DNA of 45,442 bases from Nitrospinales bacterium (GCA_023248535.1 JAHFEJ010000018.1:1-45442); one strand, 5' to 3'. Counted from the stretch's first letter, positions 7,167-24,380 are shown. Program-made: numbers and translations. The notes: generated by a model from the sequence alone, not told the origin.

Positions 7167-9656
7167 GTGAAAAAGCATCTATTGCTGTTGTTGATAAGCG
7201 CGGTACTGTCCGCCTGCGGGTCGGATCCTATCCGGCCCTCAATTCCATCCGCTCCCACCGGAGTGACCGCCACCGCAGGGAACGGACAGGTGATCGTCAG
7301 TTGGACCGCCGTTACGGGGGCGACGTCTTATAACATCTACTACGGCACGGCGGCGGGCGTTACAACCGCCAGCACTAAAATAACAGGTGCAACATCACCC
7401 AAGACCATTACCGGCCTCACCAATAATACGACTTATTACTTTGTGCTGACGGCGCTGAACGAAAGCGGGGAAAGCACACTGTCAAGCGAGGTACCCTCCT
7501 CTCAACCCACAACACTTACCACCCCCGCCGGGCTGTCCGCGACCCCCGGGGACGGCCAAGTGACCCTCACCTGGACCGCCGTTACCGGCGCGACATCCTA
7601 TAACGTCTACTACGGCACCGCGGCGGGCGTTACAACCGCCAGCACAAAGGTAGCCAGCACCGCATCACCCTGCACCATTACCGGCCTTACGAATACAACG
7701 ACCTATTATTTCGCGGTGACGGCGACCGAATTCACGGTGGCGAGCAGCGTGGGGAGCGAAACCGCGCTATCAAGCAAAGTATCTTCCACTCCACAGCTTC
7801 CGGGCGGTTATGCCCCGGCCACGGGCGCGGCGATTAACATAACCAATACCTACGCCACGCTGGTGGGCAGCTTCACCAACCCCGCATCCACCACCACCGA
7901 GTCGCGCTTTGAATGGGGAACGACGACCGCCTATGGCACCAACACCGCCAGCCTGGTTTATTCCGATCCGGGCAACATAGCCCCCTCGATAGGCATTACC
8001 GGCCTCACGGCGGGAACCACGTATCACTACCGGTTCGGCATCAAGACCTCAGACGGCTCATGGTGGTACGGTGACGACAAGACGTTTACCACCACCACGT
8101 TGACGGCCAAATCGACCATCGTCAGCGGCCTGAGGTATCCCGGCCAGTTTACCGTCGCCGCCACCGGCGTGTACTGGACGGAAGGGATCGGCTCGTTTAA
8201 CCTCTACTACAACACGGTGACAGGCGTCACCACCGCCCACAATCCAGTGACCAATGTAACCTCCGGCAAAATCGTCAGCGGGCTGACCAACGGCTTGACG
8301 TACTTCTTCAAAGCTGCCGCGGTGGACAACGGAGTTGCAGGAACGCTCTCCTCGGAAGTCTCCGCCTCCCTGACCGCCGCAGTGCCCGGGGGTGGCCAGT
8401 TGGCCGCGCCGACCAACGTTAACGTCACCGCCAGCGATGCATCGGTAACGGTAAGCTGGACAGCCGTTGCCGGCGCCGCATCATACAACATCTATTACGA
8501 CACCGTGACCCCTGTTTCAACCCTCAGCCTATATAACAAAATTGGCGCGGTATCCGGTGGCGGCGTATACATTTTATCTCCCGGAGCGGGCGGCGCCCCG
8601 CTCGCCAACTTGACCAAGTATTACTTCCGCGTGGCGGCGGTGAGCGCCGGTGCGGTCGTGGGAGCCTTGTCCGCCGAAGTCGGCGTTACGCCGCACGTCG
8701 CCGCTCTGGCCACCCCCTACTGGCTTGGCATCACGGCCGGAAACACGCAAGTGACATTGACCTGGACGGCCGAAACGGGCGTTGTGAAGTCAGCCCCGCT
8801 CGCCGGCGGCGCAGCCACAACGCTGGCATCCGGGCTAAGCCATCCCTTCGGCATAGCGGTTAATGCCACCAATGTGTTCTGGGCGGAGCAGAACAGCACA
8901 TCCACCGGCCGCGGAGCCGTGAGAACCGTTCTTATTGGCGGCACCTGTGTGGGCGCTGTCGGCATCGCCGGCACGACCTGCACCACGCTCAACACCACCC
9001 CATTGAACAATCCCCAGTACATCGCACTGGACGCCACGAATGTATACTTCACGGAACTGGGAACTTTTGACACCGTGAGCGGTATGCGGCTGAGCGATGG
9101 AACTATAAATAAAGTGCCCCTCGCCGGGGGCGCGGTCACGCAACTTGCCACGGGGCTTAACGGTCCGCAAACCATTGCGGTTGATGCCACGAACATCTAC
9201 TGGGCGGAAAACGCCAACGCGGTGGCCGGGGCGGGCTTCGTCAAGAAAGCGTTGCTCGCCAACAGCAGCATCGCGGCGCTGGTAAGCCAGTTAAGCGGTT
9301 CACAGAATATCACCTTGGATTCCACCGATGTCTACTACTGGTCGGCGTATGGCGCCTTATCGAAAGTCGCCATCGGCGGAGGAAACGCGGTGGAGGTGAC
9401 CAGCGGCATGAGCGGAACCCAGCCGCTGGCTATCGATACCGCCAACGTCTATTGGACGGAAAACACCAATGGCGGAACCGTGAAGAAACTCAATAAATCC
9501 ACCAGAAACGTTTCGATCATCGTGGGCCTCGACTGCACATGGTGCACCGCGCTTGGCATCGCGCAGGATGCCACGTACGTTTATTGGATGGAAGGGGATA
9601 CCTTCGACGGCACCAAGTGGACCGGCGTTGGCGCCATCAAGAAGGTGGCGAAATAA
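7167..9656 (+). CDS. Lipoprotein of fibronectin type III and beta-propeller repeats (chimeric)
   Basis: This 829-residue predicted surface or periplasmic lipoprotein starts at GTG 7167, chosen because it gives a short signal (KKHLLLLLISAVLSAC) with lipobox LSAC and Cys at residue 17, and a G-rich ribosome site precedes it. A TATAAT box at 7135-7140 may be its -10. Two near-identical Fn3 repeats come first (SYNIYYGTAAGVTTASTK in each), then a divergent Fn3-like domain (RFEWGTTTAYG). Next are a propeller fragment (GVYWTEG near 8170) fused to half an Fn3, another Fn3, half an Fn3 fused back to propeller at about 8775, and then five or so blades with the YWTE/VFWAE/IYWAE signature. Such propellers usually bind ligands or partners. 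The function is unknown. The domain boundaries are broken in a way that suggests internal recombination. Confidence 0.85.
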   Translation: MKKHLLLLLISAVLSACGSDPIRPSIPSAPTGVTATAGNGQVIVSWTAVTGATSYNIYYGTAAGVTTASTKITGATSPKTITGLTNNTTYYFVLTALNESGESTLSSEVPSSQPTTLTTPAGLSATPGDGQVTLTWTAVTGATSYNVYYGTAAGVTTASTKVASTASPCTITGLTNTTTYYFAVTATEFTVASSVGSETALSSKVSSTPQLPGGYAPATGAAINITNTYATLVGSFTNPASTTTESRFEWGTTTAYGTNTASLVYSDPGNIAPSIGITGLTAGTTYHYRFGIKTSDGSWWYGDDKTFTTTTLTAKSTIVSGLRYPGQFTVAATGVYWTEGIGSFNLYYNTVTGVTTAHNPVTNVTSGKIVSGLTNGLTYFFKAAAVDNGVAGTLSSEVSASLTAAVPGGGQLAAPTNVNVTASDASVTVSWTAVAGAASYNIYYDTVTPVSTLSLYNKIGAVSGGGVYILSPGAGGAPLANLTKYYFRVAAVSAGAVVGALSAEVGVTPHVAALATPYWLGITAGNTQVTLTWTAETGVVKSAPLAGGAATTLASGLSHPFGIAVNATNVFWAEQNSTSTGRGAVRTVLIGGTCVGAVGIAGTTCTTLNTTPLNNPQYIALDATNVYFTELGTFDTVSGMRLSDGTINKVPLAGGAVTQLATGLNGPQTIAVDATNIYWAENANAVAGAGFVKKALLANSSIAALVSQLSGSQNITLDSTDVYYWSAYGALSKVAIGGGNAVEVTSGMSGTQPLAIDTANVYWTENTNGGTVKKLNKSTRNVSIIVGLDCTWCTALGIAQDATYVYWMEGDTFDGTKWTGVGAIKKVAK

Positions 9657-9699
9657 CAGGGGAGAAAAAGCTTCCTTCTCCGGTACGGAAAGACAAGAG

Positions 9700-10145
9700 C
9701 GGGAGGGCATATGCCCTTCCCCGACTTCCGGGTGGATACACAATTCGGGAGGCGCGGAAAAGGATGTTTCAATCCGCGCCGGATGTGGCCTATAGGCCAT
9801 CTTGTGTACGTTGGCGCAACGCGCCAAGAAATGGATCATGCCTTTGGCATGATGTACCCAATGAATTGGGTACCCACCGAGCTTCCCGGTAGCGGCGGAA
9901 CTCTTGCCGCCGCTTGGCGCGCCAGCGCCAAACCATTCTCTGTCATGCCGGTCTTGAACCGGCACCCAGAAACATTATCAAAACTTCTCCCATCGGCCCC
10001 TTGGGCCGGTGTACCCATTAAAATGGGTACCCACCGAGTTTCCCGGTAGGGTAGGTACACAATTTATTGTGTACATTGGCGCAACGCGCCAATAAAGGGG
10101 TCATGCCTTGAGGCATGATGTACCCATTAAAATGGGTACCCACCA
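9700..10145. repeat. Mosaic of short and nested palindromes (block 2), partly duplicated in tandem
   Basis: The 507 bases between the Fn3 lipoprotein and the minus-strand oxidase operon hold no gene I can support but about a dozen palindromes. Examples are AGGGCAT/ATGCCCT (9704-9717), GGCGCGGA/TCCGCGCC (9751-9780), TGGCCTATAGGCCA (9786-9799), TTGGCGCAACGCGCCAA (9811-9827 and 10076-10092), TCATGCC/GGCATGA (9836-9852, 10101-10118), GTACCCAAT/ATTGGGTAC (9854-9873), GCGGCGG/CCGCCGC (9892-9913), TTGGCGC/GCGCCAA (9914-9931), GCCGGT/ACCGGC (9947-9963), CGGCCC/GGGCCG (9994-10008), GTACCCATT/AATGGGTAC (10011-10030, 10120-10139) and GTACACAAT/ATTGTGTAC (10055-10074). The series TTGGCGC, TCATGCC, GTACCCA, CCACC occurs twice about 265 bases apart. 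TACACAA (9737) and TTGTGTA (9802) enclose an inner module shared with block 1. Confidence 0.87.
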
Positions 10146-10163
10146 AGAACAAGGGAGGGTCGG

Positions 10164-10679
10164 CTATTCAAACACCAGGAAATCGGGCTTCTTGAAGTTG
10201 ATCGCCACAACATCGCGCGGCCCGAAATTGATCTCCCGCGAAATGTTGAAGGCATATCCGCCAGCCGCCCCTTTTTCCCCCGCCTCCACGGTCACGGTAT
10301 GCCGTCCCACGGGAAGCATGTGCTGCTCCAGCACGAAAATGGAGGTGTCGTGCCGCCAGCCGGAAGCCTGTATTTCCTTTTCCGTCAACACTCGTCCGTC
10401 CACCGTGATCCGCAGAGCCAACGGGTGGCGTTCCCGGCTGCCGCATTCGGCCTTGGCGTTTTGCATATGGCGTGGCCGGTTGTCCCGTCCGGCCAAATAG
10501 CTCTTCATTTCCGATTCGGGACATTCATGAATACGGGGGGTGGTGTGTTTGAAAGAAACGGCCAGTTGGGCCGTATCGTCCTTGTGAAAGCAGTACGCCG
10601 GCCGCGAAGTGATGAATCCCACAAAAGCCGCAACAGCGGCCAGCACAATCCATCCTCCGGGCGGTATCAGCGTTTTCAT
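10164..10679 (-). CDS. Unknown membrane-anchored periplasmic protein of the oxidase operon
   Basis: I do not recognise this 171-residue protein. One N-terminal hydrophobic helix (about residues 9-26) is followed by a probably periplasmic domain with two Cys (HECPE near 52 and AECGS near 79) and a beta-rich C-terminal half (ALRITVDGRVL, GRHTVTVEAGEKG). That half looks like an immunoglobulin-like fold, though this is inferred from pattern only. Its ATG overlaps the cytochrome b stop by ATGA, so it is the last gene of the oxidase operon and probably translationally coupled. Position suggests an assembly or accessory role. The unknown last gene of norSY-senC-type clusters (orf1) is a possible counterpart, but I cannot show homology. 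Confidence 0.8.
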   Translation of the reverse strand: MKTLIPPGGWIVLAAVAAFVGFITSRPAYCFHKDDTAQLAVSFKHTTPRIHECPESEMKSYLAGRDNRPRHMQNAKAECGSRERHPLALRITVDGRVLTEKEIQASGWRHDTSIFVLEQHMLPVGRHTVTVEAGEKGAAGGYAFNISREINFGPRDVVAINFKKPDFLVFE

Positions 10680-11644
10680 TCCCTCCCCCCTTCCTCGGGC
10701 CGCACGACGGCGGCCGCCTCATTCGGCATCAGCCACGGGAATGTCGCCATCGCCCCAAATATTGCGGCAGTGCCGCTCCAAAGCAATACCGGGGAAATCG
10801 CGTAGGCATTGGCCAAGGGAAATACCGACATGTATAGCCAGTCGATATTTACGGCACCGGTGAGGTGCCGCAGGTCGGCGGGGGGGCCGCTGACCGCCGG
10901 AACAAAAACCGACAGCGCCAGCAGCGTCACGGTCATCGCCCATACAAGCGGGCCATACGGCCACACGCGCGGCCGCGACTGCCGCAAATTATGCACCCAC
11001 AAAATGATGATCAGGCCGCACGGAATGACCAGATGCAAGTAGGAAAGAAGAAAGAAGAACAGTTGGTTCATCGTTCCGCCGGGAACAAAATTGCGCGCGA
11101 ACGGCTCCATCGCCAACGGCAAAGCATCAAACCATTTGGCGAATTCGTGGGCCGCCATCAACCCCCGGTCATCCCAGACCATCACATAGCCTGAGGTTCC
11201 CTCAAACCAGATGAGCGGAAAAACCACCAGCCCGGTCATCCAGGCCAGCCACCGGTGGCGCCGGACGCGGCCGGAGAAAAAGACATGGTAAACGTGCATG
11301 GCGGTAACCAGCATCAACCCTCCCGATGCGTACCGGTGGAGCGAACGCATAATACCGCCAACCCACCGCTGCCCCTCGGTGAGTTCCTTCACCGTGCGGT
11401 AGGCGCCATCCGGGGTCATCTCATAGAAGAGATAAATATATGCGCCGCTAACTACCAGCGTCCAAAAGAAAAACCAGAGAAGGCCGCCAAGCTGGTGCAT
11501 CGGGTTGTACGGGTGATCGAACAGCCTGTCGAATAACCGCCCTACCGTGCGCAACAGCCAGTGGCCGGGACGGAGTGCGGCTGGTAATTGGTAGGGATCG
11601 GTGGAGGGCCGGATTTCGGGTGCGTTGGGTGCTTCGGTTGCCAT
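10676..11644 (-). CDS. Cytochrome b (b6-like), oxidase-operon type
   Basis: This 322-residue polytopic protein belongs to the cytochrome b/b6 family. Helix B carries two heme ligands in SLHRYASGG...AMHVYHVFF, and helix D carries the second pair in SYLHLVIPCG...LWVHNLR. The aromatic-rich helices and the GTSGYVMVWDD loop also fit. After the four-helix core there are two or three more helices. No Rieske protein or cytochrome c1 gene is beside it, so it is not an ordinary bc1 operon. It sits 4 bases after the Sco gene and overlaps the next gene by ATGA. I infer that it delivers electrons, possibly from quinol, to the neighbouring CuA/heme-copper enzyme, or forms a complex with it. Confidence 0.88.
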   Translation of the reverse strand: MATEAPNAPEIRPSTDPYQLPAALRPGHWLLRTVGRLFDRLFDHPYNPMHQLGGLLWFFFWTLVVSGAYIYLFYEMTPDGAYRTVKELTEGQRWVGGIMRSLHRYASGGLMLVTAMHVYHVFFSGRVRRHRWLAWMTGLVVFPLIWFEGTSGYVMVWDDRGLMAAHEFAKWFDALPLAMEPFARNFVPGGTMNQLFFFLLSYLHLVIPCGLIIILWVHNLRQSRPRVWPYGPLVWAMTVTLLALSVFVPAVSGPPADLRHLTGAVNIDWLYMSVFPLANAYAISPVLLWSGTAAIFGAMATFPWLMPNEAAAVVRPEEGGRE

Positions 11645-11648
11645 GATT

Positions 11649-12476
11649 TTACTGCCTCGATTGACGGGTAAGATAAAAAATGAAATACGCGGCGGTGGCG
11701 AGCGCCAACACCGATTGAATACCGGTTACAACTATAAAGAGGAAATTCGGACTGTACGCATCCTTTTCCGGATCATACCTGGAACAGTAGAGCATAAACT
11801 TGTCGAACAGTATCGACATCCTCGCGCCCAGCGTACGCCCCTCCTGCACCGCCGCCACAGCCCCCGTGACGGACGCGGCGTCGAAAGTGGTGCCGTAAAA
11901 ATGCCGCTCGACCTTGCCGGTGGGGCCGATTAACGTAAGCCGGTTCATATGTTGCGGGGTAGCGCTCCCCTTCTGGTAATCGAACCCGATGTCGTCCGCC
12001 AGTTGCGCCAGCACCTTTGGAGTGAGCGCCACGAAACGCCATTCAACCCCCGGCACGGCGAAGTCGGCGGCATACCCGGCCCGCCGTTTGGCGGTGTCGA
12101 TCTCAGGCGTGAGCGTCACGGAGAGCGCCGCGGTGGTCTTCCGCAGCGCGGGAGGGAGCTTGGTCAAGATGTCTTGCACCGAATGCGCGATCATGGGACA
12201 GGCTTCGGGGCAATCAGCAAAAAAAAAGGTTAACAAGACCGATTTCCCCCGGAACCCGTAGAGCGGAACAGGAAGCTCCCGCTCGTCAATCAGTGGATAG
12301 TTTTTGAGAACCCGGCCAATGGCCCGCTCCGAGCGATCCACCGCGGCCGGAGCGGCTAATGCCGGCGGGGGTATTAATCCCGCCAGCAACACCGCGAAAA
12401 AAAGGGGGGGGAACAGCGCGGCGCAAAGAGTTTGCCGGAAACCCTTCACCCCCCACGGTTGTGCAAGTTCGCTCAA
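11649..12476 (-). CDS. SCO1/SenC family copper chaperone with C-terminal membrane helix
   Basis: Sco proteins deliver copper to, or act as thiol reductase for, the CuA centre of subunit II. The Cu site is present: CxxxC in DCPEACPM and the distal His in PQHMNRLTLIG. A signal sequence precedes it and a membrane helix closes the protein (FLFIVVTGIQSVLALATAAY). The start is uncertain. An ATG at 12536 is in frame but overlaps the 41-residue gene by 64 bases. I prefer TTG at 12476, which overlaps that gene's stop as TTGA; a GTG at 12449 is a third option. Sco next to a CoxB/CoxA pair matches both ordinary oxidase operons and the norSY-senC clusters of ammonia oxidisers (family knowledge). Confidence 0.9.
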   Translation of the reverse strand: MSELAQPWGVKGFRQTLCAALFPPLFFAVLLAGLIPPPALAAPAAVDRSERAIGRVLKNYPLIDERELPVPLYGFRGKSVLLTFFFADCPEACPMIAHSVQDILTKLPPALRKTTAALSVTLTPEIDTAKRRAGYAADFAVPGVEWRFVALTPKVLAQLADDIGFDYQKGSATPQHMNRLTLIGPTGKVERHFYGTTFDAASVTGAVAAVQEGRTLGARMSILFDKFMLYCSRYDPEKDAYSPNFLFIVVTGIQSVLALATAAYFIFYLTRQSRQ

Positions 12477-12598
12477 CCGACATTCCAAACGCCGATAAGC
12501 TCTTTCCAGTTCAGGAGATAGAACGCGACAAGACAAGCGAAAAAGAAATAGATCAACGCGTTCGTCCCTAACGGCCTGTGCTCTTCTTTAAGACTCAT
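12473..12598 (-). CDS. 41-residue single-helix membrane protein between subunit I and Sco
   Basis: This small gene is easily missed. It starts at ATG 12598, 8 bases after the subunit I stop, with an excellent Shine-Dalgarno (GAGGTGA) that overlaps that stop, and ends at 12473 touching the Sco start. The product begins MSLKEEHRPLGTNAL, then has one membrane helix (IYFFFACLVAFYLLNW) and ends KELIGVWNVG. Small single-helix subunits are common in heme-copper enzymes: CcoQ in cbb3 oxidases and the 34-residue subunit IIa of Thermus ba3. I infer a structural subunit of this complex. Coupling on both sides makes a chance open frame unlikely. Confidence 0.8.
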   Translation of the reverse strand: MSLKEEHRPLGTNALIYFFFACLVAFYLLNWKELIGVWNVG

Positions 12599-12606
12599 GC
12601 TTCACC

Positions 12607-14118
12607 TCAACGATTGATCTTTTTGCCAATGGCCACCGTGGAAACGGCGACCAGTATATACATGGCGCCCCCCACAATGGCCACCAAACCGCCCACAGCC
12701 ATAACGGCCAACGCGAGGTCGGCCGTCGGGCCATACGCGACGGGGAACGGCGCTTCAGCCCCGGTGATATCCCAGTCCCGGCGCGGAATGCCGAATCCGC
12801 CCACGAACATCATCGCGGTCGAGAAGACGAACATGCCGGTGCCGAAGACATACGGCTGAAGCTTGGCTATGCCCGGGAACATCACTTCGCGGCGGAAGAT
12901 CAGCGGCAGCACATAGTAGGTGATGCCCATGAACGCCATCGAGGTACCGATAACCACCGTGGCATGGAAATGCCCCGGCACCCGCAGGGTGTTGTGGACG
13001 ATGATGTTGAGCTGCTCGGTGCCGTAGATAACGCCGGTGATGCCGCCCAGGAAGCCGAATCCGACCACCGAGAACACCAGCGACGAAAAGCCGGGATCGC
13101 CCCAGGGCGCCCGCTTGAGCCATTCGAACAACCCTTTGGTGTAGCCTTTCTTGCGCTGCGCCACTTCAACGGCCGCCGGAACGGAGAAGGCGTGCATCAT
13201 GCTGGCCAACACGGCGAGGTGCATGAAGTAGCCGGTATTCCATTCCTTGTGCGCGGTGGAAATGCCCGGATCGACCAACAGGTGGTGTTCGCTGGCGATC
13301 ATGATGAACAGGATGTAGAGCGTGAACGCGGAGCGCGAGAACTTCTCGCTCACCGGCACGGAGCCGACGGTAAGCGTGCCGAGCAGGTACCAGCACGAGA
13401 TCATCGCGGCTACGTTGATCTGCTGCGTGGAGTGCCCGAATGCCCAGAACAGGAGCCGGTAGACTTCCGGATCCATCATCGGGATCACCCCCAAGGCCCA
13501 GAGCCAGGTGGGAATGAAGACGATGGCCCCATGCGCGAGGGTAAGCAACGCGATGATGGCGGCGGCAATAGCGCCGAACGTCACCAACGGAACCGACCCG
13601 ACATAGGTCTTTTCATGGCGCGCGGCGCCCAAAGTTGCGAAAAACACGCAGACGCCGAGGATGGCCCCCACGGCGAAGAGAATGATGCCGAAGTAATACA
13701 TGTGATGCGCCTTCAACGGCACATACGAGGTGAACATGACGTCGGCCTGGCCCACCAGAATCGTCACCGCCGTGATAGCCGCGCCGACCACCATGAGGCC
13801 GTATTGCCCCCATGCGAGATACGGCACTGAAAGCCGCGTGTTGAGCAAAATAGCGGAGGCGAAATAGAGCACCGCCATTTCAAAAAAGACTATCCACGCC
13901 ACCAACATGGCAATGCCGTGCAGCGTGAGAAGGCGGTAAAAGAAATCGGCCGGCAGCAGGTGCACCGCCTGCCAGCGCGTGAGAAGCAACAACAACGCCA
14001 ACAGCCCGCCGACCAGCAAAAAGACTATGCTGGTGACCGCATTGAACATAATCAGCGTTTCCGCGTTACGTTCAACCTTGAGGCCGGTGACAGGACAAGT
14101 CCTGAATACAGCTTCCAT
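12607..14118 (-). CDS. Heme-copper oxidase superfamily subunit I, possibly NO reductase (sNOR-like)
   Basis: A 503-residue protein with about 12 membrane helices. Metal ligands are present: low-spin heme His in LLTLHGIAM (about residue 66), CuB His in FGHSTQQIN (about 229), the CuB His pair in ASEHHLLVD (about 278), and the helix X pair in GHFHATV (about 383-385). The catalytic Tyr of A- and B-type oxygen reductases, four residues after the first CuB His (GHPxVY), is replaced by Gln. The cbb3 Tyr position, six residues before the HH pair, is Ile. Loss of this Tyr is typical of NO-reducing relatives. Together with CuA subunit II and SenC this matches the sNOR arrangement. Some divergent oxygen reductase is the alternative. 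The family is certain; the substrate is inferred. Confidence 0.92.
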   Translation of the reverse strand: MEAVFRTCPVTGLKVERNAETLIMFNAVTSIVFLLVGGLLALLLLLTRWQAVHLLPADFFYRLLTLHGIAMLVAWIVFFEMAVLYFASAILLNTRLSVPYLAWGQYGLMVVGAAITAVTILVGQADVMFTSYVPLKAHHMYYFGIILFAVGAILGVCVFFATLGAARHEKTYVGSVPLVTFGAIAAAIIALLTLAHGAIVFIPTWLWALGVIPMMDPEVYRLLFWAFGHSTQQINVAAMISCWYLLGTLTVGSVPVSEKFSRSAFTLYILFIMIASEHHLLVDPGISTAHKEWNTGYFMHLAVLASMMHAFSVPAAVEVAQRKKGYTKGLFEWLKRAPWGDPGFSSLVFSVVGFGFLGGITGVIYGTEQLNIIVHNTLRVPGHFHATVVIGTSMAFMGITYYVLPLIFRREVMFPGIAKLQPYVFGTGMFVFSTAMMFVGGFGIPRRDWDITGAEAPFPVAYGPTADLALAVMAVGGLVAIVGGAMYILVAVSTVAIGKKINR

Positions 14119-14130
14119 TTCCTATCCCCC

Positions 14131-14676
14131 TTAATCCACGTAAATACGGCCGACCATCGTGTGGTGGCCGATTCCGCAAAATTCGTTGCAGACGATGTTA
14201 AAAACGCCCGAGGTCGTCGGGGTTACTTTCAGCACGTAATCGTACCCGGGCACCGCCTCGAAATTCATGTTGATCGGCTGCACCGAGAAGCCGTGCAAGA
14301 CGTCGATGGATGAAAGGTGTATGCGGTATTCCGAACCCTTCTTCAATTTCAGAACGGGGCTCCATTTGAACTGCTGCCCGCGCACAAACACATCGCCCGG
14401 CGGCGGCGCAACGACATCAATGCCCCCCTCCTGCTTGATGGCGCCCGCCTCGTCCTTCACCCCATACTGCTGGATGAAACGGTCGGTGGCGGCATCAAAC
14501 GTATCCGGCTTGATTTTGTAGTATTCGCTGCCCGGGTTCTGTTTCTGAGTCACATGCCAATAAGGCATGGCCAGCGTCAACACGATACTGGTGGTAAGAG
14601 CGATGGCGAGCCAGACCTTTTCATCTTTGTCCAGCGGATCGCGCCACCAATGTTTTTCAGGAATAAAAATGCTCAT
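14131..14676 (-). CDS. CuA-containing subunit II of the heme-copper enzyme
   Basis: This 181-residue protein has one N-terminal membrane helix (about residues 23-42, VWLAIALTTSIVLTLAM) and a periplasmic cupredoxin domain. All CuA ligands are visible: His in DVLHGFSV, then the C-terminal VCNEFCGIGHHTMVG with two Cys, Glu, His and Met. This is the entry point for electrons from cytochrome c or another donor. A single helix rather than two resembles ba3/B-type and sNOR subunits. It ends 12 bases before subunit I starts. An insertion between helix and CuA domain (KPDTFDAATDRFIQQYGVKD) is not part of the minimal fold. Confidence 0.93.
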   Translation of the reverse strand: MSIFIPEKHWWRDPLDKDEKVWLAIALTTSIVLTLAMPYWHVTQKQNPGSEYYKIKPDTFDAATDRFIQQYGVKDEAGAIKQEGGIDVVAPPPGDVFVRGQQFKWSPVLKLKKGSEYRIHLSSIDVLHGFSVQPINMNFEAVPGYDYVLKVTPTTSGVFNIVCNEFCGIGHHTMVGRIYVD

Positions 14677-14711
14677 CGGCTATCCTCCCCTCTAAGCTAG
14701 TTAATTACGGA

Positions 14712-14957
14712 TTATTGCGCCGCTGGCGGCGTTACTGCCGGTGCTGCCGCCGGTGCTGCCGCCGGTGCTGCTGTTGACGTTAACCCCTCCAGCGGCGATT
14801 TCCCCACCGAAGCGAGCTCCATCACACCCCAAGTGGTGTAGGAAATAAACAGTATCGCGGCGGCAAGGAAAAACAGCAGCCACCAGTCATCCATGAAGAC
14901 CTGCCAGTACGAAACGTTATCGCTCGAACCCGAACCTTGAGACTTTTCATTAGCCAT
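14712..14957 (-). CDS. Small Ala/Pro-tailed membrane protein, first gene of the oxidase operon
   Basis: An 81-residue protein with a polar N-terminus (MANEKSQGSGSSDNVSYWQ), one membrane helix (WWLLFFLAAAILFISYTTWG) and a low-complexity tail of AAPAAAP repeats encoded by imperfect 12-base repeats. I chose ATG 14957, with AAGGGGTGA about 10 bases upstream, over a GTG 12 bases earlier. It lies 35 bases before subunit II. I recognise no family. Position and form suggest a small accessory subunit or anchor of the complex. Confidence 0.78.
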   Translation of the reverse strand: MANEKSQGSGSSDNVSYWQVFMDDWWLLFFLAAAILFISYTTWGVMELASVGKSPLEGLTSTAAPAAAPAAAPAVTPPAAQ

Positions 14958-15082
14958 TTTGCAAATCACCCCTTTCTGCCCATTTTGGGCGTACAGAAAC
15001 CTCTAGCCCTATTTGGGTAATATTAATTCGCCAAGGGAAATCGGGCTATGACTTTTATCCATGCTTTTTTCATGGATTTTAG

Positions 15083-20673: not shown

Positions 20674-22530
20674 ATGCATTTTTTCCGCGCGCGCCGTACC
20701 CTCTTCTTTGTTCTGCTCTTGGCCGCCGTCCTGCTGGCGCTTAGTCCCGGCATCAACGCCAAAATGAGCTTTGATGCCCGCATGATGGTCTACGATAACC
20801 CCTTGGTAACTTCGTCCAACAACATCCTAAAACCGTTTTGGAGCGACTTCTGTGAAGGGTGCCGCATGGATGGGCAAATCAGCCTGACATCCGGCTTTTA
20901 CCGTCCGGTGGTGAACGCCGTGTACTGGCTGGAATACCGCTTCGCCGGAACCAACGACGCCATTTACAACTTCGACGAAATGCTGCTTCACTGGGTATGC
21001 GCATTAACGGTCTTTTTCCTCGCCGCGCGGCTGATGCCGGACAAGCCTTTGGCGCCCTTCATCGCCGCAACGCTCTTCGCCCTGCACCCCGCCAACGCCT
21101 ATGCCGCCACCCGCGACGTGCGGTCCGACCTGCTCTGCCTGCTTTTCTACCTCGGCGCGGTCATCGCCTACCTCCGCGCGTTTCCTCCCGCCGCGCCGCC
21201 GCGCAAACGGTTCATCCTCCTTTCCCTAACCTGCTTCCTCGGCGCAATACTGAGCAAAGAGATGGGGGTCACGCTCCCCGCTGTGCTGGTGATGCTCCAC
21301 TTCCGCCAACGCCATGCCGATGGGCGGCCCATGCGCGAATTGCTTTATACTCTCCCCTTCTGGCTCCTCTTCACGGCATATATGGCAATGCGCGCCCTTC
21401 TGCTCCCGCAAGGCGGGGCAAGCCCCTACCTGATGGCCTATACCTCCCCCGTGCTTTACATCAATGCCATAAAAAACTTCGCCATCTACCTCCTGCGCTA
21501 CATCCTGCCGCTGGGAGCCGGATACCCCACGCTATTGCCCAAAATGGTGAATTTCATCGACCCCACCTTCACCGATCCGCTGATCTACCTTTCCCTGGGG
21601 CTCCTCATTCTCATTACCGGCGCCGCCCTGTGGAACATACGGCGGCACCCCACAGCGGCGTTTTTGACCTTTTTCATGCTGGTCACCATGACGCCCCTGA
21701 CCATGGTCACCCGCATTTCCGATATTACCGACATCAATGTCCTCAAAACGCCGGAACGCTTCATGTACATCCCCTCCGTGCCGCTGCTGCTGCTGGCCTC
21801 GCTCTTGCTGCAAAACGCATACAGCAGCCTTCAAAAGGATGCCGCCAAAAAAGGGGCCGCCATCGCAGGTGTAGGCGCGGCGCTTTTCCTGGGATCCCAA
21901 TCCAACACACACACCGTCGCCATCAACAGCGACGTGGCAACCCTAAAAAACCTCTACCTGTTCCCGGAAGAGCGCCTCACACCCCGCATGCTTCTCATGC
22001 GGGAATGCCTTTACGTTCTTCGCGTCGCGCTTCCCCTGCGTAATTTTACCGAGGCGGAACAACGCCTTGTAAAAGTCCTGAAAAACAATCCATCCGCTCC
22101 CTTGCCATACATGGTGCTGGGAAATCTCTACATGCAAACGGAAGAATGGAACAAGATCACGCCGCTCATTTTGCAATGGAACCGCCTTGATGTAAGCGAT
22201 TTAGAACTGATCATGAAAAATAACCCGACAATCCTGAGCGACTACATGGGCGTCTACCGCCATTTCCCTTACCTGTTGGCCGCGGCGGCAACCCATAGAG
22301 GAGAGGCGCGGCAAGCCGCGGATTACCTCTGTTCCGCGTTGCAACGGGGATTTGACGAACAGGAAATTGTTTGGGGGCTTCGCGAAAATTACCTGCTGAA
22401 CGGCCCGCCCCAATGCCGCACCGCACAGAACGAAGCCCTCTGCCGCAAAAACGCGTCTATCCCCGATTTCGCCGAATGGCGGCAGCCGCTCGACCCAAAA
22501 CGCTGTAAAGAATGGAAAACCCTGTTTTGA
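20674..22530 (+). CDS. TMTC-like membrane O-glycosyltransferase with helical C-terminus (copy 1)
   Basis: A 618-residue protein. About ten membrane helices (residues 8-400) are followed by a helical TPR-like domain of about 190 residues. The first loop has FDARMMVYDNPLV and FYRPVVNAVYWLEYRF. Next is FALHPANAYAATRDVRSDLL, matching the HPxxxEAVxxxxGRxDLL pattern of eukaryotic TMTC protein O-mannosyltransferases and bacterial relatives. Only one Asp is seen in the first-loop DD position. These are GT-C enzymes that use lipid-linked sugars at the outer face of the membrane. Residues about 81-429 are encoded by DNA that appears identical to the next gene. It lies downstream of pilA, so pilin is a plausible acceptor (inference). 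Confidence 0.82.
   Translation: MHFFRARRTLFFVLLLAAVLLALSPGINAKMSFDARMMVYDNPLVTSSNNILKPFWSDFCEGCRMDGQISLTSGFYRPVVNAVYWLEYRFAGTNDAIYNFDEMLLHWVCALTVFFLAARLMPDKPLAPFIAATLFALHPANAYAATRDVRSDLLCLLFYLGAVIAYLRAFPPAAPPRKRFILLSLTCFLGAILSKEMGVTLPAVLVMLHFRQRHADGRPMRELLYTLPFWLLFTAYMAMRALLLPQGGASPYLMAYTSPVLYINAIKNFAIYLLRYILPLGAGYPTLLPKMVNFIDPTFTDPLIYLSLGLLILITGAALWNIRRHPTAAFLTFFMLVTMTPLTMVTRISDITDINVLKTPERFMYIPSVPLLLLASLLLQNAYSSLQKDAAKKGAAIAGVGAALFLGSQSNTHTVAINSDVATLKNLYLFPEERLTPRMLLMRECLYVLRVALPLRNFTEAEQRLVKVLKNNPSAPLPYMVLGNLYMQTEEWNKITPLILQWNRLDVSDLELIMKNNPTILSDYMGVYRHFPYLLAAAATHRGEARQAADYLCSALQRGFDEQEIVWGLRENYLLNGPPQCRTAQNEALCRKNASIPDFAEWRQPLDPKRCKEWKTLF
20914..21962 (+). repeat. 1,049-bp direct repeat, copy A (gene-conversion tract)
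   Basis: Identical by eye to 22767-23815, offset 1,853 bases, and identical in all overlapping frames. The left edge is sharp (GTGAACGCC against GTCAACGCC) and the right edge falls at a three-base indel. Flanking parts of the two genes are only distantly similar. Confidence 0.92.
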
Positions 22531-24380
22531 ACGCCGCACTGGTACGCCGCATTGCCTTCTTTATGCTGCTTCTTGTTGCGGCGCTGGTCACGTTCCGCCC
22601 CGGCATCAATGCCAGGATGACGGGAGACGCACACATGCTTATCTACAACAACCCCTTGGTCACCGCGCCCGATGGCATCCTGCACATTTTTCAAGGGGAT
22701 TTCTGTAATGGATGCAATGTAGACATGCCGATCAATATATCCACCGGCTTCTACCGGCCGCTGGTCAACGCCGTGTACTGGCTGGAATACCGCTTCGCCG
22801 GAACCAACGACGCCATTTACAACTTCGACGAAATGCTGCTTCACTGGGTATGCGCATTAACGGTCTTTTTCCTCGCCGCGCGGCTGATGCCGGACAAGCC
22901 TTTGGCGCCCTTCATCGCCGCAACGCTCTTCGCCCTGCACCCCGCCAACGCCTATGCCGCCACCCGCGACGTGCGGTCCGACCTGCTCTGCCTGCTTTTC
23001 TACCTCGGCGCGGTCATCGCCTACCTCCGCGCGTTTCCTCCCGCCGCGCCGCCGCGCAAACGGTTCATCCTCCTTTCCCTAACCTGCTTCCTCGGCGCAA
23101 TACTGAGCAAAGAGATGGGGGTCACGCTCCCCGCTGTGCTGGTGATGCTCCACTTCCGCCAACGCCATGCCGATGGGCGGCCCATGCGCGAATTGCTTTA
23201 TACTCTCCCCTTCTGGCTCCTCTTCACGGCATATATGGCAATGCGCGCCCTTCTGCTCCCGCAAGGCGGGGCAAGCCCCTACCTGATGGCCTATACCTCC
23301 CCCGTGCTTTACATCAATGCCATAAAAAACTTCGCCATCTACCTCCTGCGCTACATCCTGCCGCTGGGAGCCGGATACCCCACGCTATTGCCCAAAATGG
23401 TGAATTTCATCGACCCCACCTTCACCGATCCGCTGATCTACCTTTCCCTGGGGCTCCTCATTCTCATTACCGGCGCCGCCCTGTGGAACATACGGCGGCA
23501 CCCCACAGCGGCGTTTTTGACCTTTTTCATGCTGGTCACCATGACGCCCCTGACCATGGTCACCCGCATTTCCGATATTACCGACATCAATGTCCTCAAA
23601 ACGCCGGAACGCTTCATGTACATCCCCTCCGTGCCGCTGCTGCTGCTGGCCTCGCTCTTGCTGCAAAACGCATACAGCAGCCTTCAAAAGGATGCCGCCA
23701 AAAAAGGGGCCGCCATCGCAGGTGTAGGCGCGGCGCTTTTCCTGGGATCCCAATCCAACACACACACCGTCGCCATCAACAGCGACGTGGCAACCCTAAA
23801 AAACCTCTACCTGTTGGAAGAAAGACTTACGCCAAAAATGTTGGCCCTTCGAGAATGTTTTTATGTGCAGTTTGTAGACCTTCCCAAACACAATTACGCC
23901 GATGCGGAACAGAGGATGCGGGAGGTTTTGAAAAACAATCCGGCCATGCCGATGCCCTATGCCGAGTTGGGGTTTGTATACCTGGAGACGAGACGGTGGA
24001 GCCTGATTCCGCCCCTCGCGGCGCCATGGAACAACCTTAAACCTGAAGACATTTTGAACCTTCGGAAACAAAACCCGACCTTCCAGAACGAGTACCTTGG
24101 GGCCTATCACAACTTCCCCTTTCTGCTGGGAGCGGCGGCGGCGCACCGGGGAGAGGCACGCGAAGCGGTGGATCTTTTTTGCTCCGCTCTCCGGCGGGGA
24201 TTTAACCAAGAGCAGGTCATCAACGAATTGCGCGGAAACTATCTGCTGAACGGCCCTTCCCAATGCCGCGCGGCGCAAGATGAAGCGCTCTGTATCAAAA
24301 ACGCAGCTATTCCCGATTTCACCGGATGGCGGCAACCGCTTGATCCGAACCGGTGCGAGGAGTGGAAGAATCTCTTTTAG
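22512..24380 (+). CDS. TMTC-like membrane O-glycosyltransferase with helical C-terminus (copy 2)
   Basis: A 622-residue paralogue of the preceding gene with the same plan: first-loop GDAHMLIYNNPLV and FYRPLVNAVYWLEYRF, ten or so membrane helices, then a TPR-like tail. The first ~85 and last ~190 residues differ clearly from copy 1, while the core between is the same. The tail ends alike (DFTGWRQPLDPNRCEEWKNLF against DFAEWRQPLDPKRCKEWKTLF). The start is uncertain. ATG 22512 overlaps copy 1's stop by 19 bases, and TTG 22527 aligns better with copy 1. Translational coupling to copy 1 is likely. Different loop and tail domains on one core suggest differing acceptors or sugars (inference). Confidence 0.82.
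   Translation: MENPVLNAALVRRIAFFMLLLVAALVTFRPGINARMTGDAHMLIYNNPLVTAPDGILHIFQGDFCNGCNVDMPINISTGFYRPLVNAVYWLEYRFAGTNDAIYNFDEMLLHWVCALTVFFLAARLMPDKPLAPFIAATLFALHPANAYAATRDVRSDLLCLLFYLGAVIAYLRAFPPAAPPRKRFILLSLTCFLGAILSKEMGVTLPAVLVMLHFRQRHADGRPMRELLYTLPFWLLFTAYMAMRALLLPQGGASPYLMAYTSPVLYINAIKNFAIYLLRYILPLGAGYPTLLPKMVNFIDPTFTDPLIYLSLGLLILITGAALWNIRRHPTAAFLTFFMLVTMTPLTMVTRISDITDINVLKTPERFMYIPSVPLLLLASLLLQNAYSSLQKDAAKKGAAIAGVGAALFLGSQSNTHTVAINSDVATLKNLYLLEERLTPKMLALRECFYVQFVDLPKHNYADAEQRMREVLKNNPAMPMPYAELGFVYLETRRWSLIPPLAAPWNNLKPEDILNLRKQNPTFQNEYLGAYHNFPFLLGAAAAHRGEAREAVDLFCSALRRGFNQEQVINELRGNYLLNGPSQCRAAQDEALCIKNAAIPDFTGWRQPLDPNRCEEWKNLF
22767..23815 (+). repeat. 1,049-bp direct repeat, copy B (gene-conversion tract)
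   Basis: Partner of 20914-21962. No insertion-sequence ends or target duplications are visible, so homologous recombination between paralogues explains it better than transposition. Confidence 0.92.

Follow-up and report, generated by a model that had tools for sequence, protein, structure and literature searches.

A conserved heme-copper operon of a Nitrospinales bacterium that probably encodes an eNOR-type nitric oxide reductase, with a linked cytochrome b

Does a heme-copper operon whose catalytic subunit carries glutamine in place of the active-site tyrosine encode an oxygen reductase or a nitric oxide reductase, to which family would the enzyme belong, and what is the role of the diheme cytochrome b encoded with it? 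These questions are raised by a locus on contig JAHFEJ010000018.1 of a Nitrospinales bacterium (GCA_023248535.1; host genome of 2.87 Mb, with Nitrospinota as its nearest named relatives), analysed here as a stretch of 45,442 nucleotides (the window). Seven tightly packed genes run on the minus strand from 14969 to 10164, in the order p85, CuA subunit II, subunit I, p41, SCO, cytochrome b and exp171 (Table 1). The operon lies where the initial annotation had placed it, and all of its genes were recovered. From 5' to 3' along the operon, the first six genes are separated by 35, 12, 8, ~23 and 4 bp; cytochrome b and exp171, at its end, overlap by ATGA. A Pfam search of the operon proteins matched the families COX2, COX1, SCO1-SenC and Cytochrome_B and returned no match for p85, p41 or exp171. 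Upstream of p85, no FNR/DNR box was found, the pattern occurring at chance level in the window. Downstream of the operon, in the intergenic region 9650-10165, a 36-nt repeat that includes the palindrome GTACCCAWTRAAWTGGGTAC occurs three times, alongside other short repeats; the 36-nt repeat may belong to a wider repeat family of the host genome. Further along the window, the two genes of a tandem pair (20674-22530 and 22512-24380) have different ends around a core of 1049 bp (20914-21962 and 22767-23815) that is identical in both, which suggests a recent duplication, gene conversion or an assembly effect.

Table 1. Genes of the operon, with positions counted from the first nucleotide of the window
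Gene product	Position	Strand	Description
p85/p81	ORF 14712-14969; 14712..14957 from ATG	-	single-TM small protein directly upstream of subunit II
Subunit II	14131..14676	-	one TM helix and periplasmic CuA cupredoxin domain; PF00116, E 3.8e-8
Subunit I	12607..14118	-	heme-copper catalytic subunit; PF00115, E 1.2e-61
p41	12473..12598	-	single-TM protein, detached C-terminal piece of subunit I
SCO/SenC copper-insertion protein	11649..~12449	-	PF02630, E 6.7e-12
Diheme cytochrome b	10676..11644	-	b6/bc family, ~6 TM; PF00033, E 1.9e-15
exp171	10164..10679	-	exported 171-residue protein; one TM helix and beta-sandwich domain

Subunit I was compared column by column with heme-copper subunits of A, B, C and NOR-like type, drawn from relatives and from plasmids. 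All six histidine ligands of the hemes and CuB are present (67, 229, 278, 279, 383 and 385), column 233 holds Gln where every A and B row has Tyr, and column 272 holds Ile where the C-family rows have Tyr, in agreement with what had been read from the sequence initially. Judged by the aligned columns at the two known positions, the catalytic tyrosine is absent from subunit I at both: Gln233 occupies the place of the helix VI Tyr that is cross-linked to a CuB His in B-family oxygen reductases, and Ile272 that of the helix VII active-site Tyr of the C family (cbb3). Among 103 homologues, Gln232, Gln233 and the metal ligands are conserved at 0.99-1.00; because of this conservation, and because the gene set recurs at the testable loci, the residue pattern did not arise by chance.

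The overall architecture of subunit I resembles that of ba3-type oxidases. The protein aligns with the Thermus thermophilus ba3 and Aquifex aeolicus oxidases (E ~1e-42), and its AlphaFold model (pLDDT 82.7, pTM 0.86) has as best PDB matches the A. aeolicus enzyme (7deg, TM 0.89) and T. thermophilus ba3 (TM 0.87). A PDB search for a solved relative likewise placed ba3-type oxidases on top, at ~26% identity. This match in fold and ligands, the retention of K-channel residues and CuA, the database names of relatives (cbb3- or ba3-type oxidase) and the slow O2 reduction of which some NORs are capable would all suit a B-family O2 reductase, degenerate or adapted to low oxygen, or a dual O2/NO enzyme. 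We regard such an enzyme as improbable here, given that both known active-site positions lack Tyr in the Gln-type sequences, that nir genes occur as neighbours and that the same genome encodes a separate A-type oxidase with the Tyr.

The phylogeny of subunit I, proposed as a check in the initial annotation, was run on 68 heme-copper subunits and rebuilt after removing the long rows of the first tree. The sampled Gln-type rows form one clade (bootstrap/SH-aLRT 100/99, recovered in 100% of 200 bootstrap trees), which is separate from the Tyr-bearing B-type subunits (100/99) and from the A and C families, and lies outside the oxygen-reductase clades. Heme-copper families have been distinguished by their active-site residue, which is Tyr in O2 reductases, Glu in cNOR and qNOR, Asn in sNOR and CuANOR, Asp in gNOR and Gln in eNOR (PMC8756737). 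The last of these, also designated 'ba3-a1', is one of four NOR families regarded as characterised (PMC11388526), and it has been reported to take the electrons for NO reduction from cytochrome c (PMC8879329); an enzyme of this type was noted earlier for the SCO gene in its operon and for the missing catalytic Tyr (PMC6431628). It has been reported or discussed in Chloroflexota and in the Thermus and Thermomicrobium groups (PMC8756737). The Gln clade recovered here includes Chloroflexota, Thermus and Thermomicrobium members, the eNOR references of R. marinus and A. maritima not being among its rows. On the basis of the diagnostic residue, the taxonomy and the clade, the operon probably encodes an eNOR-type NO reductase, a reading to which we give a probability of roughly 0.86.

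The layout around the active site is consistent with this assignment. A gene for a cupredoxin-type subunit II directly adjoins that of subunit I on its upstream side, and the full CuA ligand set of its product (H128, C163, E165, C167, H171 and M174) is conserved at 0.99-1.00 in 102 aligned sequences. Equally conserved in these 102 sequences (0.99-1.00) is Glu19 of subunit II, which we take to stand in the place of the ba3 K-channel-entrance Glu. When the K-channel positions that PMC3128077 gives for the B family are matched to subunit I, a correspondence made within this analysis, the second Tyr (Y244) and the Ser (S306) are kept, His309 occupies the Thr position and Gln233 replaces the active-site Tyr. 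Together with Glu19, the residues at positions 244, 306 and 309 point to one K-type channel, and the kept residues would permit energy coupling without demonstrating it.

The initial annotation had called the enzyme sNOR-type and compared the operon with norSY-senC. The shared order of CuA subunit II, subunit I and SCO stands, and sNOR is, like eNOR, a B-family-like NOR, but the likeness does not extend beyond that order. PMC8756737 lists a single proton channel for eNOR and no channel for sNOR, which also has Asn at the Tyr position, against the invariant Gln233 and the kept K-channel positions of the enzyme described here. Since Gln233 is the published mark of eNOR, we place the operon with eNOR and reject an sNOR identity, which we consider very improbable. 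The cNOR and qNOR families, recognized by an active-site Glu and by a heme c subunit (cNOR) or a single fused subunit (qNOR), were also rejected: subunit I has Gln rather than Glu, is accompanied by a CuA subunit II and is placed by the tree well away from the C/cNOR side.

The genomic context agrees with the reading as an NO reductase. The host genome encodes a full-length NirS (539 aa ORF, E 1.7e-125), and a COX1 scan of this genome found no cNOR or qNOR. At three loci of relatives (L035, L039 and L059), nirS lies ~1.3-1.5 kb upstream of the operon in divergent orientation, and nirK is placed likewise in a fourth (L068); nirS is also found near the operon copy on a Thermus plasmid. In total, 19 of the 85 loci, often with short flanks, have NirS or NirK encoded in the flank; on our own rough estimate, which takes one or two such genes per genome of ~3000 genes, ~1% would be expected. 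Within the class, NirS was detected in 11 of the 18 genomes that carry the Gln enzyme vs 1 of the 6 that lack it, a co-occurrence that is only suggestive. The preference for NO over O2 as substrate, already expressed in the initial annotation, is upheld by Gln233 in place of the Tyr, by the clade outside the Tyr-bearing oxidases and by this NirS/NirK context. In Defluviimonas, a hemerythrin-family gene (L116:15526-15930) follows the eNOR-cytochrome b-exp171 operon.

The genes surrounding subunits I and II had been described as new to this locus, which did not hold, as they are conserved across phyla at 33-35 of the 35 testable loci. This synteny count covered the 35 named loci with sufficient flanking DNA: p85, subunit II and p41 were present at 35/35, SCO at 34/35, and cytochrome b and exp171 at 33/35. 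The named relatives belong to Nitrospinota, Nitrospirota, Gemmatimonadota, Proteobacteria, Bdellovibrionota, Kiritimatiellota and others, and the synteny rejects the possibility that the small genes are a matter of chance or a local oddity. The first of them, p85, encodes 81 residues from the ATG at 14957, with a longer ORF from the GTG at 14969. It has one hydrophobic region, invariant W47 and G48 (numbered from that GTG) and homologues at 100 of 103 loci. In Thermus and Aquifex, the equivalent gene position is held by cbaD (PMC3128077), and p85 is the probable counterpart of the B-family subunit IIa (CbaD). Homology links the protein p41 to the C-terminal part of subunit I ORFs; as the two are fused at 56 loci, p41 can be recognized as the split-off C-terminal end of subunit I. 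It is a separate ORF at 45 loci, an arrangement seen in Nitrospinota and part of Nitrospirota. The start of SCO is uncertain, GTG 12449 being the most plausible in an ORF that is open to 12536, and the residues C79, C83 and H166 of the protein are conserved at 0.99-1.00.

The cytochrome b carries two heme His pairs, 103/117 and 204/218, both spaced as H-x13-H and kept in all or nearly all homologues. Its PDB sequence matches are cytochromes b6, and the host genome has further cytochromes b. A bc complex would join a PEWY-type cytochrome b to Rieske and cytochrome c1 partners; here, the diheme ligands are present, a DWFY-like motif stands at the PEWY place, with Asp268 in 58 of 61, and neither a Rieske nor a cytochrome c1 gene was found in the operon. 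The AlphaFold model of exp171 (pLDDT 91.7) combines a single TM helix with a beta sandwich, for which a fold search gave only weak matches to CBM20 and Ig-like beta sandwiches and a PDB sequence search gave none. The conserved Cys pair of exp171 is lost jointly at two loci (L062 and L113), which fits a disulfide better than a metal site. A function of exp171 as an electron carrier was rejected, since it has no heme motif and its Cys pair behaves as a disulfide. If the cytochrome b has six TM helices, the helix of exp171 would be the seventh and its domain would be periplasmic.

Exp171 and cytochrome b are encoded in one ORF at 12 loci and separately at 41. These natural fusions and the synteny at 33 of 35 loci indicate a conserved larger unit, as had been proposed for an enzyme with its own cytochrome b, and make it likely that cytochrome b and exp171 form part of one larger complex. 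No cytochrome b gene was found nearby in Thermus, in Thermomicrobium or at 2 of the 35 loci, which suggests that the cytochrome b module supplements the core and that the core reaction can do without it. In Gemmatimonadota, the cytochrome b gene is transcribed divergently.

A mechanism can be outlined for the eNOR-type enzyme. Electrons would enter at CuA, either from cytochrome c or from quinol via the two b hemes, and pass through the low-spin heme to the heme/CuB site, where 2 NO + 2 e- + 2 H+ would yield N2O + H2O. The protons would come from the cytoplasmic side by way of the K channel, so that the reaction could conserve energy. CuA would be loaded by SCO, p41 and p85 would add the helices still missing from subunits I and II, and the host's own NirS would supply the NO. 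Cytochrome b and exp171 may deliver electrons from quinol. A broader proposal, which at present we hold to be rather unlikely, is that eNOR in many Gram-negative phyla is a quinol:NO oxidoreductase of several subunits rather than a cytochrome c:NO reductase of two. A diheme cytochrome b, working without a Rieske protein and accompanied by a periplasmic beta-sandwich protein, would supply CuA with quinol electrons, and a single complex would couple NO reduction to energy conservation. Somewhat short of even odds, in our estimation, is an arrangement in which cytochrome c alone feeds the eNOR core, and cytochrome b and exp171 constitute a separate quinol-linked device encoded alongside; this would be compatible with the eNOR assignment. 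It would account for the reported use of cytochrome c by eNOR (PMC8879329), for the Thermus, Thermomicrobium and some other loci without cytochrome b, for the divergent cytochrome b gene of Gemmatimonadota and for the lack of an evident cofactor site in exp171, but it sits less easily with a linkage that is near-universal (33/35 loci) and spans many phyla.

Other heme-copper-like genes accompany the family. A homologue of subunit I without two of the three CuB His is encoded in the host genome (C13:11021-12160; L003:1480-2775), beside ctaA- and ctaB-like genes. Such homologues are ORFs of ~430-580 aa with the motifs WGGGHxLQ or WTPGHIQQ, and PAHYH; they group with the Gln clade in a quick tree and lie <10 kb from the eNOR operon at ~20 loci in several phyla (among them L043, L045, L063, L064, L081, L087, L103, L106 and L109). 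Also in the host genome, a short COX1-like N-terminal segment is fused to DUF1858 domains (C74; L174:1287-2264) and lies divergent from a CRP/FNR-like regulator.

Most biological N2O comes from NO reductases. As enzymes of this type are annotated as oxygen reductases, an NO-reducing capacity in Nitrospinota, Gemmatimonadota, Nitrospirota and other phyla can readily escape notice. Should the cytochrome b prove to be a true subunit, the electrons for NO reduction could come from quinol and the reaction could conserve energy, which, if true, would alter the way in which such partial denitrifiers are represented in models.

Among known systems, the quinol oxidase SoxABCD of Sulfolobus offers a functional likeness, as it unites heme-copper subunits and a diheme cytochrome b in one complex. 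The operon proteins gave weak matches to the SoxA, SoxB and SoxC models, far under the curated cut-offs, and SoxABCD differs in reducing O2 and in lacking CuA. With sNOR (norSY-senC), the operon has in common the order of the CuA subunit II, subunit I and SCO genes and nothing further, sNOR being set apart by its active-site Asn and by having no predicted proton channel. The ba3-type B-family O2 reductases share the fold (TM 0.87-0.89), the ligands and the IIa-II-I gene order, whereas the enzyme encoded here has no catalytic Tyr and belongs to a separate clade. With the eNOR characterised from Rhodothermus marinus (ba3-a1), the operon shares Gln at the Tyr position, a cupredoxin/CuA subunit II, B-family kinship, the K-channel residues, SCO in the operon and a spread over Chloroflexota, Proteobacteria and Thermus; it appears to differ from that enzyme in that p41 is split off subunit I and that cytochrome b and exp171 are attached.
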